Of a stretch of 64,000 bases of DNA, positions 57,452-61,549 are shown in pieces. Source of the DNA: Thermoplasmata archaeon. GTDB taxonomy: Archaea; Thermoplasmatota; Thermoplasmata; Lutacidiplasmatales; UBA184. Made by a program: the position numbers and the translations under genes. The notes under the pieces are model-generated. The model had not been told where the DNA came from. It ran no database searches and saw only the letters and a list, made by a program, of their open reading frames with translations. Each line of letters begins with the position of its first letter. Position 1 is the first letter of the stretch. The DNA lies in the NCBI GenBank assembly GCA_022749895.1, contig JAKIWS010000007.1, positions 1-64,000 on the forward strand, read 5' to 3'.

Positions 57452-58261
57452 TCATGTCGAGGAGCCGGTCAGGGCCTTTGCCTCGGACGGTCGGTCACTC
57501 GCCGAGCTGCCTTCGGTGATGAGCGAGTAGACGTAGTCGGTCAGGTCGTAGAACGCCTGGGACTTCCGGTCGCGCGGCCGGGGGAGGTTCACGATCACGC
57601 CCGCGAGGACGCGGCTCGGGCGGCGGGAGAGGACGATGATCCTATCCGCCATCTGCACGGCCTCTTCGATGTTGTGGGTGACGAGGACGACGGCGTCGGG
57701 GGGGAGCTGCGGGTCCTGCCAGAGCTGACGGACCTCTTCCCGCAAGCTCTCCGCGGTCAACGGGTCGAGGGAGCTGAACGGTTCGTCCATGAGGAGCGCG
57801 GTCGGCTCGACCGCGAGGGCCCGCGCGAGCCCGACCCGCTGACGCATGCCGCCGGAGAGCTCGCGCGGGTACGCTTCTTCGAACCCGACCAGACCGGTCG
57901 CGGTGATGTACCGGTCGACCCGCGCCTCGATCTTCGACGCGTCGAGGCCCCGCGCCTCGAGGCCGATCCCGACATTGTCATGGACGGTGAGCCAAGGGTA
58001 CAGCGCAAAGCTCTGGAACACCATCGCCATCTGTGGAATGACCCGATCGACCGGTTTCCCGCGAAAGCGGATCGTCCCGGCCGTCGGGCGGTCCAGGCCC
58101 ATCATCAGGCGGAGCAGCGTCGACTTGCCGCAACCGGACGGGCCGACGATCGCAAGGAAATCGTTGTCGGCGACGCTGAAGGAGATCCCGTTCATGATCG
58201 AGATCGTCCCGTGCCGGGAAGCGTAGCTCTTGTCGACGTCGACGACTTCGATGATCGCCAT
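57452..58261 (-). CDS. NitT/TauT-type ABC transporter ATP-binding protein
   Basis: IVGPSGCGKSTLLRLMMGLDRPTAG; LSGGMRQRVGLARALAVEPTALLMDEPFSSLDPLT; VTHNIEEAVQMADRI. Confidence 0.95.
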   Translation of the reverse strand: MAIIEVVDVDKSYASRHGTISIMNGISFSVADNDFLAIVGPSGCGKSTLLRLMMGLDRPTAGTIRFRGKPVDRVIPQMAMVFQSFALYPWLTVHDNVGIGLEARGLDASKIEARVDRYITATGLVGFEEAYPRELSGGMRQRVGLARALAVEPTALLMDEPFSSLDPLTAESLREEVRQLWQDPQLPPDAVVLVTHNIEEAVQMADRIIVLSRRPSRVLAGVIVNLPRPRDRKSQAFYDLTDYVYSLITEGSSASDRPSEAKALTGSST

Positions 58262-58291
58262 GCACTCCTCCCCCGCCGACCGCCCCGCCCG

Positions 58292-60118
58292 CTAGTCGTA
58301 CCGGTATTTCTCGACCGCCTTGCGGTAGAGCGGTTTCCAGAGGAGTTCATTGAGCGCCACGACCACGATGATGAAGGTGAAGAGCGACGCCACGACCAGC
58401 GCCTGGCCCCCTGGGGAGGTCGTGCCGATGTTGAGGAGCTCCCCGACGCCGAGCGTCCGGCAGCCGCTCGCGATCTTGCCGCAGGCGAACGGTAGATATT
58501 CCGCGATGATCAACGTGTTCCACCCTCCTCCGAACGCCGTGATCGATCCCGTGAGCAGCGCTGGTAGGACCGCCGGAAGGAGCACCTTCCGGTAGTAGAG
58601 CCAGCGCGAGAGCCCGAAGGCTTGGGCCGCCTCGTCGAGGTCGGGGGGAATGCTTCGGAGGCCCGAGAGGATGTTGAAGAACAGGTACCAGATCATCCCG
58701 GTCAACAGGACCAGGATCGCGACCCCTTCGAACCCGATGTACGCCAGGATGGTGATCACGAACAGCGGGAACAGCACCGTCGCCGGGACCGACGCGACGA
58801 CTTCGACGACGGGCAGGCCGACCTTGTAGAGCCCGGGTCGCCGCACGAGATAGACGGCGAGCGGCAGCGCGATCGCGAGAGAGAGCAGGTACGCCAGCAC
58901 GACCCGTCCGAACGACAGCACCGCGGCGAGGGGGAGTAGCCGGATCTTGGCGAGGGTGTCCGGCGGGATCGGCGCCGCGAGCACGACGTAGATGGCGGCC
59001 CCGGCGGCGATGAGCATCAGCCACACCAGGACGAGCGCCCCCCCGAGGACGGAGTAGTTGAACGCGGTCTTGGCGAGCGGACGCTCCTTGGCGCGGATCG
59101 GGCGCATCGTGTACGACGCGAGGCCGACGAACGGCACCGAGACCCGGGTCACCCCGGTCCGGAATCCGCGGGCGACGAACCCGGCCGCCCGTCGCAGCGG
59201 CCTCGGCGTCGTTCGCGTTTGGAGGGCCTCGCCCGCCCCGCTGGGCGCGCTGTCGTAGCGGTACTTCTCGGCGCGCCGTCCGAGCGGCCTCCAGACGAAC
59301 AGGTCGAGCGCCGCGATCAACATGATCAGGAGGAGGAGGCCCGCGTAGAGCGCGCCCGTCGCGTGGGCTTGGGCCGCGTAGAGGAGAAAGCTCCCGATCC
59401 CCGGGAGGGCGTGCGAGCCTTGCGACGTGGCGATGAACTCGGCGGCGACGAGGAAGTACCATCCGGCGGTCCAGGAAAGGACGGAATTGTAGACGAGACG
59501 GTTGATGGTCGCCGGAAACAGGACGCGGCGGACCCGGAGCAGACCACGCACCTGGAACGTGTCCGCCGCCTCCTTGAGCTCGGCCGGGAGCGACTTCAGC
59601 GATTCGTACACGCCGAAGGCCATGTTCCAGGACATCGACGTGAAGATCAGAAAGATCGAGGCGAGGTTCGGTCCCAGGACGGAGCCCGCGCCGGGAAAGC
59701 CGACGAAGAAGGTGATCGCAATGGGGAAGAATCCGAGGATCGGAACCGACTGGAGGATATCGAGAACCGGGACCAGAACCCGCTCCCCGGTCTTCCGGGT
59801 CGCGGCGAAGTAGCCGTAGCCGAAGGCGAACAGGAGCGAGAGTCCGTACGCGGCCAGCATGCGCACGAACGAGTAGAGGAGGTCGACGGCCGCCGTCGGG
59901 AGCGCGGATTCGGTCGCGCCGAGGGCCGTCGTTCCGGCGAGCGTCAGCAGCACCGGTGTTCCGAGCACCGCGGCCCACGCCCCGAGGCCGCGCGGGCGCA
60001 GTGCGAACGAGGGCCGGGCTTCGGCGGCCGGGGGGGTCGCTACCGTCGGGGGAGTTCCATCGTGGCGCCGAGCGGTCGCCGTCGTCCCGGTCGATTCGGC
60101 CCGGCGCTGCCGCCACAT
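58292..60118 (-). CDS. ABC transporter permease, tandem fusion of two permease domains
   Basis: 608 aa with two BPD_transp-like halves (SLKSLPAELKEAADTFQVRGLLRVRRVLFPATI and GLRSIPPDLDEAAQAFGLSRWLYYRKVLLPAVL). Confidence 0.93.
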   Translation of the reverse strand: MWRQRRAESTGTTATARRHDGTPPTVATPPAAEARPSFALRPRGLGAWAAVLGTPVLLTLAGTTALGATESALPTAAVDLLYSFVRMLAAYGLSLLFAFGYGYFAATRKTGERVLVPVLDILQSVPILGFFPIAITFFVGFPGAGSVLGPNLASIFLIFTSMSWNMAFGVYESLKSLPAELKEAADTFQVRGLLRVRRVLFPATINRLVYNSVLSWTAGWYFLVAAEFIATSQGSHALPGIGSFLLYAAQAHATGALYAGLLLLIMLIAALDLFVWRPLGRRAEKYRYDSAPSGAGEALQTRTTPRPLRRAAGFVARGFRTGVTRVSVPFVGLASYTMRPIRAKERPLAKTAFNYSVLGGALVLVWLMLIAAGAAIYVVLAAPIPPDTLAKIRLLPLAAVLSFGRVVLAYLLSLAIALPLAVYLVRRPGLYKVGLPVVEVVASVPATVLFPLFVITILAYIGFEGVAILVLLTGMIWYLFFNILSGLRSIPPDLDEAAQAFGLSRWLYYRKVLLPAVLPALLTGSITAFGGGWNTLIIAEYLPFACGKIASGCRTLGVGELLNIGTTSPGGQALVVASLFTFIIVVVALNELLWKPLYRKAVEKYRYD

Positions 60119-60317
60119 TCCGCATCCCCCGGCATGGGTCGCAATCGGTAGGACCGCTTCGCGGTATATCGTCCTTGACCTCGATTCCGTTCCCGCGTCG
60201 CGTCCCTCGCCCGGCCCCCGTCGCCGCGGTTGCCCCGCGTCGAACCGTGCTCGGCGCGCGGTCGGGGCCGGCGTGCCGCGGCAGGTTTATGTGTCCTGCA
60301 AAGCTCCCATCGACTGT

Positions 60318-60424
60318 AGCCCCGTAGTGTAGTGGCCAATCATGCGAGACTCTGGATCTCGCGACGCAGGTTCGAACGCTCCGAGGCCGCGCGACCTCGG
60401 TGGCCGGAACTCCTGCCGGGGCTA
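60318..60424 (+). tRNA. tRNA-Gln (CTG) with 34-nt T-loop intron (about 60377..60410)
   Basis: AGCCCCG/CGGGGCT acceptor; anticodon arm CGAGA-CTCTGGA-TCTCG; T-stem GCAGG/CCTGC; removing the intron restores TTCGAAT; TATA-like gtttatgtg about 28 nt upstream. Confidence 0.9.
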
Positions 60425-60457: not shown

Positions 60458-60602
60458 GCGGGGGTGCTCCAGCTCGGCCAAGCCGCCCGGTCTCCCGGGC
60501 GGGGCCTCCGAGGCAGGGCTTAGAACCCTGTTGCTTAGGGCATGCGCCGGTTCAAAGGGAGCGCGGCCCGCCGCCGCGTTCCGGAGACTCCGGCCCCCCG
60601 CA
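60458..60602 (+). tRNA. tRNA-Leu (TAG) with D-loop intron (about 60482..60508) and T-loop intron (about 60557..60588)
   Basis: GCGGGGG/CCCCCGC acceptor + A; anticodon arm CAGGG-CTTAGAA-CCCTG; V-arm TGC..GCA; T-stem GCCGG/CCGGC; intron removal restores TTCAAAT and a class II tRNA of about 86 nt. Confidence 0.88.
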
Positions 60603-60619: not shown

Positions 60620-61549
60620 ATGAACCGACCGGTGCGGTTGCCCGACGGGGCGTCGTGGGAGATTCTTCCTCCCTCGGCCATCCTCCGTCTGGAACCCGAG
60701 GGCGCCGACCAACTGCTCGACCGGCTCGAAGCTGGCGTTCCGATCGCTCCGGCACTTGCCGAGATACCCAAGGTTTCGGACGGCACCGCCTACGTCTTCG
60801 GCGACACCCACGGCGACTGGCGCTCGACCGAGGCCGCGGTCGCGCGGTTTTTGCCGGCGCCGCTCACCGACTTCTTGGTCGGACTCGGCGACTACGTCGA
60901 CCGCGCCCCGGACGATTGCGCTCAGGGCTCGGTGGCGAACGCGCTCTTTCTCCTCCAGCTCGCGGCCCAATTCCCCGGTCGCGTCCTCTTAGTGAAGGGC
61001 AACCACGAAATGCATCGGATCCTGCCGGTACTTCCGCACGACCTCGACGAAGAGGTCGACACCCTCTGGGGCCCGGACATCCGGCGCTACGCCCGGATCG
61101 CGGCTCTCCTCGAGCGGGGTCCGCTCGCCGCGGTCACCGACTCGGGGGCCTACCTCGCTCACGCCGGCTTTCCGCGGAACGGGAAGGGGGCCGACGTGCG
61201 GGCCGGCTTCGAGCGGTTGACCGAGGAACAGGTCGTGGACGTCGTGTGGGGCGAGAGTGGCGCCTCGCGTTCCCACCGGGGGGTGTCCGTCCCGTTCACC
61301 GAGCGCGAGCTCAAGGAGTTCCTCACACACGTCGGCGCGAGCGTCTTCGTGCGGGGCCACGACCCGGATCTGGCCGGACGCTCGGTCTTCGATGACCGCT
61401 GCCTGACCCTCCACACGAGCCGGATTCACGAACGGTTCGGAGGGGTCCTGCTGGCCCGGGTCCCGCTCGATACCCGGGTCCGGCATGTCGCGGACCTCAC
61501 GATCGAGCACCTCGAGACCGAGGGAAGGGAGTACCCGGCCCCCGACTGA
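60620..61549 (+). CDS. PPP-family (PP1/PP2A-like) metallophosphatase
   Basis: VFGDTHGDW, GLGDYVDRAPD, VKGNHEMH motifs; starts 17 nt after tRNA-Leu. Confidence 0.92.
   Translation: MNRPVRLPDGASWEILPPSAILRLEPEGADQLLDRLEAGVPIAPALAEIPKVSDGTAYVFGDTHGDWRSTEAAVARFLPAPLTDFLVGLGDYVDRAPDDCAQGSVANALFLLQLAAQFPGRVLLVKGNHEMHRILPVLPHDLDEEVDTLWGPDIRRYARIAALLERGPLAAVTDSGAYLAHAGFPRNGKGADVRAGFERLTEEQVVDVVWGESGASRSHRGVSVPFTERELKEFLTHVGASVFVRGHDPDLAGRSVFDDRCLTLHTSRIHERFGGVLLARVPLDTRVRHVADLTIEHLETEGREYPAPD

Follow-up and report, generated by a model that had tools for sequence, protein, structure and literature searches.

A tRNA gene interrupted inside its T-loop raises two questions: whether it is still alive, and why its tandem neighbour should be interrupted at the very same nucleotide. 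Both are posed by a tRNA-Gln(CTG) gene in a stretch of 64,000 nt (positions 1 to 64,000 of contig JAKIWS010000007.1; hereafter the window) from a Thermoplasmata archaeon of the Lutacidiplasmatales. The tRNA-Gln gene and the tRNA-Leu(TAG) gene that follows it are built as listed here.

60286–60291, forward strand: TATA-box-like TTTATG, ~32 nt upstream of the tRNA-Gln 5′ end
60318–60376, forward strand: tRNA-Gln(CTG) exon 1, 59 nt, ending at T-loop A59 (AGCCCCG-TA-...-GCAGG-TTCGAA)
60377–60410, forward strand: 59/60 BHB intron of tRNA-Gln, 34 nt, strict hBHBh′
60411–60424, forward strand: tRNA-Gln exon 2, comprising T60, the T-stem 3′ strand CCTGC, the acceptor 3′ strand CGGGGCT and A73
60458–60481, forward strand: tRNA-Leu(TAG) exon 1 (the gene spans 60458–60602)
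60482–60508, forward strand: D-loop BHB intron of tRNA-Leu (about 20/21), 27 nt
60509–60556, forward strand: tRNA-Leu(TAG) exon 2, with anticodon TAG, ending at A59
60557–60588, forward strand: 59/60 BHB intron of tRNA-Leu(TAG), 32 nt, placed by a boundary test; 65 orthologs
60589–60602, forward strand: tRNA-Leu exon 3, comprising T60, the T-stem 3′ strand, the acceptor 3′ strand and A73

The pair lies between the genes for an ABC transporter ATPase and a fused permease (57452–60118, reverse strand) upstream and a calcineurin-like phosphoesterase gene (60620–61549, forward strand) downstream. Of the 68 loci orthologous to tRNA-Gln, 48 have a TTTAT/TATA-like element beginning at −30 to −32.

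The first-pass annotation had placed a 34-nt insert at 60377–60410 of a tRNA-Gln(CTG) gene at 60318–60424, between T-loop nucleotides 59 and 60, and had described a CCGAGG/CCTCGG hairpin within it. These coordinates were exact to the base and the hairpin is present. Deletion of the insert yielded a canonical tRNA-Gln(CTG), as had been claimed, and ARAGORN called the spliced sequence as such. According to BLAST, intronless homologs from other families of the class align across nt 1–73. Run on the unspliced window, ARAGORN saw the tRNA-Gln gene with its 3′ end misplaced to 60392 and missed the tRNA-Leu(TAG) gene; the Rfam tRNA model missed both genes at its gathering score. As these failures illustrate, the tRNA complements of such genomes can be under-annotated.

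In an archaeal BHB, exon nucleotides −6 to −3 form a 4-bp central helix with intron nucleotides −6 to −3, and each of two 3-nt bulges is cut after its second nucleotide. In the Gln gene, the T-stem (GCAGG/CCTGC) serves as outer helix, TTCG/CGGA forms the central helix, and the bulges, of 3 nt each, are AA/C and AC/T (cut at the slash), with the inner helix starting flush at intron nt 2. When the boundary was slid from −3 to +3, shift 0 alone had full outer, central and inner helices (4, 4 and 3 pairs, respectively). Applied to all 14 T-loop introns of the genome, described below, the boundary-shift test returned a unique boundary at 59/60 and a BHB in each. A GGTT/RACT pairing, previously proposed for the exon–intron junctions of both neighbours, is not the functional register: it competes with that register and would break the T-stem. 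In the supported register, T54-T55-C56-R57 is paired with intron nucleotides −3 to −6, and RACT lies in or around the 3′ bulge. In the TTCA-type T-loops of the family, an intron G stands opposite A57 and creates an A–G mismatch in the central helix (7 of 8 here; 62 of 65 Leu orthologs). Because most TTCA-type loops have this mismatch, not all 14 motifs are perfectly strict. At the intron site facing A57, the Met and Ala introns of other families often carry T.

Exon 1 had matches in 76 named stretches, almost all from Thermoplasmata MAGs; Candidatus Lutacidiplasma silvani AcS3-62 and UBA184 are among them, which puts the host in Candidatus Lutacidiplasmatales (PMC9287336). The GC content of the window is 68%, against ~69% published for the Lutacidiplasmatales type genus. 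The relatives known by name are all metagenome-assembled, and the host genome is 83% complete. One matching record, DAIDCO010000027.1 (L278), is titled 'bacterium' and carries a Lutacidiplasmatales tRNA-Gln; it is probably mislabelled. Independent BLAST hits put exon 1 (nt 1–59) at 95–100% identity in genus relatives; in a set of 69 distinct orthologs, exon conservation is partly by construction because the search pattern fixed the exon except for one position. The intron was exactly 34 nt long in all 69, and its sequence drifts, with a mean identity of 59%. All but one of the 276 central-helix cells (275) were paired, A and G replacing each other opposite the two U's; the first inner pair was intact in 69/69. 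More distal intron pairs were present in 69% of cells versus 61% in shuffled sequences; the inner stem is only moderately above controls. The T-stem and central helix together appeared in the single-sequence minimum-energy fold of 56 of the 69 orthologs. Two genomes from a different family of the order (G037 and G039) have a tRNA-Gln that is interrupted near the anticodon and not in the T-loop; its BLAST halves, 1–38/39 and 44–73, are separated by ~190 and ~390 nt.

A second, intronless Gln(CTG) gene had been named as a sign that this copy is dead. One was sought in the genome and none was found, the other Gln gene having anticodon TTG. That the gene is a dead copy broken by a random insertion is scarcely credible: standard finders do misplace or miss it, but neither decayed exons nor a redundant intact copy was found, and the conservation of exon 1 among genus relatives, together with an intron that drifts under BHB constraint in its orthologs, largely refutes this reading.

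The tRNA-Leu(TAG) gene lies 27–36 nt downstream of tRNA-Gln in all 66 loci with enough sequence, and its insertion at 60557–60588 is, as first described, at the same 59/60 position as the Gln intron. Its D-loop intron was kept in 64 of 65 loci, with an exon GGCC central helix of 4 pairs in 63 of 64 orthologs. In one species (L033), the D-loop intron is cleanly absent with the exact predicted junction, GGCCAA/CGAGG, and this loss is a natural check on the boundary assignment. Across 68 loci of the genus, the lengths of the Gln–Leu spacer, the Leu D-loop intron and the Leu T-loop intron vary almost only by 3-nt steps. The total length was 0 mod 3 in 64 of 68, which may reflect few independent events. 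An overlapping coding frame was rejected as the source of the steps: no frame stays open.

We then surveyed all tRNAs of the host genome for 59/60 introns, a check proposed in the first-pass annotation. Introns at this position occurred in 14 of ~42 detectable tRNA genes, and 37/38 introns in 4 (Tyr, elongator Met, Trp and Leu-TAA). The genome was covered by a splice-and-test scan on ~1.8 Mb and by a covariance model for the remainder. The scan, which spliced in silico at 59/60, recovered 13 distinct T-loop-intron tRNAs with introns of 26–38 nt: Gln-CTG, Asn, Gly-TCC, Glu-CTC, Arg-TCT, Arg-TCG, Ser-GCT, Ser-CGA, Ser-GGA, His, Ala-GGC, Lys-TTT and Asp. Leu-TAG is the 14th. Reversed sequence gave 0 candidates, and three Markov shuffles gave 1–2 each, with inserts of 44–122 nt. 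This strict scan with controls replaced a relaxed scan, whose output was mostly noise. The covariance model was based on MAFFT alignment A3; in A1 and A2, the anticodon region or the introns were out of register. Across the genome, the model found the same 14 tRNAs and nothing else long enough to hold an intron. The Lys-TTT gene (G000:C21:24923–25065) carries a D-loop intron as well, and the non-canonical introns of the host genome number 16, of which 14 are at 59/60.

These results bear on whether the Gln and Leu introns came to share their position through local duplication or conversion between neighbours. The two genes are adjacent in all 66 testable loci and both have 59/60 introns, as that account would have it. 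We nevertheless judge it very improbable, as another twelve tRNAs, encoded elsewhere in the genome, are interrupted at 59/60 too. Moreover, the intron lengths differ (34 nt in Gln versus mostly 32 or 35 in Leu), and the two introns have no evident shared sequence beyond what the BHB imposes. The shared placement had been attributed to either a common origin or a splicing preference: the 14 tRNAs speak for the preference, and a special common origin of the neighbours finds no support.

The host genome contains one EndA gene (L062:1158–2219), encoding 353 aa with two PF01974 domains. The protein is matched colinearly over most of its length by the alpha2 EndA of Archaeoglobus. A single two-domain EndA gene with no other match was found in 39 of 41 family genomes; neither a third unit nor a separate second subunit gene, indicative of epsilon2 and (alpha-beta)2 enzymes, was found in these 39 incomplete genomes. 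A second subunit could be missing here because the genome is only 83% complete and the relatives are metagenome-assembled. A single gene with two PF01974 domains identifies the endonuclease as alpha2-type. A loop insertion in EndA is linked to broad specificity. In an alignment, both domains are about the length of M. jannaschii EndA in the loop region after the first conserved strands, and we therefore have the impression that there is no sign of such an insertion. Being strict, the Gln BHB does not call for the relaxed-motif endonuclease invoked earlier, and the type identified is the ordinary alpha2. Because the host EndA is of this type, the accumulation of 59/60 introns needs no (alpha-beta)2 or epsilon2 enzyme. 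The RtcB ligase is also encoded. Overall, the Gln insert has the motif geometry of an archaeal BHB tRNA intron, leaves a canonical tRNA on removal and resides in a genome that encodes both EndA and an exon ligase.

Our main reading, to which we assign a probability of about 0.93, is that tRNA-Gln(CTG) at this locus is a functional gene, has a BHB intron in its T-loop that EndA splices, and is probably transcribed together with tRNA-Leu(TAG). Judged from its sequence, the gene is very probably live and its transcript spliced. Before splicing, the T-stem would be extended by the 4-bp helix between T54-T55-C56-R57 and the 3′ end of the intron, flanked by the two 3-nt bulges. A single alpha2-type EndA homodimer would cut both bulges, at 60376/60377 and 60410/60411, and RtcB would join the exons, restoring TTCGAAT. 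The spliced junction expected in RNA is GCAGGTTCGAA joined to TCCTGCCGGGGCTA. With T54–R57 paired at that stage, neither the TPsiC loop with its modifications nor the D-loop/T-loop elbow could form; splicing would therefore probably gate folding and maturation of the tRNA.

The shared 59/60 position is best explained by the T-stem and the TTCRA sequence supplying one strand of the outer and central helices. The T-stem and TTCRA are near-uniform among tRNAs, so one set of intron ends would fit almost any tRNA. Position 59/60 would thus be a portable splice site, which explains why 14 different tRNAs of the host genome share it. The presence of 16 non-canonical introns in one genome of an alpha2 lineage suggests that broadening of the enzyme is not required when the host sequence supplies a strict BHB.

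We also examined the distribution of 59/60 introns in relatives. In the class sample, strong matches to the 59/60-intron model were found in all 95 sampled genomes of the family. Six of the family genomes, examined more closely, had 8–12 matches each of intron-holding length, as judged by match length only. Outside the family, most genomes of the class had no match and about a quarter had at least 1–2; several complete genomes of class families f15 and f19 had no match to the 59/60 model. In the phylum sample, one further family (f37) had up to six candidate matches, by model match alone. Per-genome counts in both samples are lower bounds, as a search of more than 40 genomes scores the best candidates only. 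Sequences from several other families of the class confirmed 59/60 introns, with complete central helices, in tRNA-Lys, -Met, -Ala and -Arg. Many families of the class have a tRNA-Lys(TTT) gene with both a D-loop and a T-loop intron (L338, L340–L343, L346, L349–L351), a pattern that suggests an old double-intron gene.

T-loop introns may be kept because they disrupt the 3′ tRNA segment that integrating elements use as an attachment site. The idea has been put forward in print for tRNA introns of archaea (PMC3293823, citing Randau and Soll), and a 59/60 intron does break up the 3′ part of the gene. We consider this explanation unlikely.

A stronger candidate, though one to which we give somewhat less than even odds, is position-specific spread, in which a BHB intron moved repeatedly among tRNA genes by recombination or reverse splicing into the TTCRA loop. 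It would be a deeper account of the main reading rather than a contradiction of it, and has been proposed likewise for the Thermoproteales, where there is precedent for large-scale intron transposition (PMC4033280). Consistent with spread, one position is used in 14 hosts, the T-arm varies very little between tRNAs, and the hosts differ by family (Gln in the Lutacidiplasmatales family; Ala, Met, Arg or Lys elsewhere). By contrast, there are no recent copy pairs, the introns of different tRNAs have no obvious likeness by eye beyond the BHB ends, and independent gains at one permissive site would give the same picture. The introns are too diverged for copy relationships to decide between one moving intron and separate gains. 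We tentatively propose a position-locked intron population in Thermoplasmatota, above all in Lutacidiplasmatales, that may have spread to a third of the tRNA genes by using the universal TPsiC arm as one half of the splice motif already in place, with the endonuclease unrelaxed. If so, intron invasion would be decoupled from endonuclease type. With dozens of species and fast-drifting introns, gain, loss and movement should be traceable at the species level.

Position 59/60 is itself already listed among non-canonical sites, of which Crenarchaeota and Nanoarchaeota are rich sources (PMC4090602). Non-canonical tRNA introns have been described as nearly confined to Crenarchaeota (PMC3218864), and non-canonical or multiple introns have been linked to endonuclease type, (alpha-beta)2 or epsilon2 (PMC4033280). 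Using tRNAscan-SE 2.0, 673 non-canonical introns were reported in 217 genomes, Thermoproteales averaging 0.84 introns per tRNA gene (PMC8450103). In the open-access literature, we found no report of T-loop introns in Lutacidiplasmatales, and the word 'intron' is absent from the paper naming the order.

Among known systems, the introns of Thermoproteota (Pyrobaculum, Thermofilum) are similar in having 59/60 among their sites (PMC4090602), a BHB and several introns per gene. They differ in their scattered positions and (alpha-beta)2 enzyme, whereas here a euryarchaeal lineage from soil, whose enzyme is alpha2, concentrates 14 introns at a single site. The canonical 37/38 archaeal introns share the BHB geometry and presumably the endonuclease, but lie in the anticodon loop and are here fewer than the T-loop introns. 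The Asgard Atabeyarchaeia and Freyarchaeia of wetland soil are likewise soil archaea with many non-canonical tRNA introns; in that unrelated lineage, however, 92–95% of tRNAs are interrupted, often non-canonically and often more than once (PMC11291895). Finally, Caldiarchaeum subterraneum has D-, V- and T-arm introns outside the Thermoproteales, for which gain from mobile elements was proposed, but its 13 interrupted tRNAs of 45 have introns at various positions, as opposed to mainly one in the present genome (PMC3293823).
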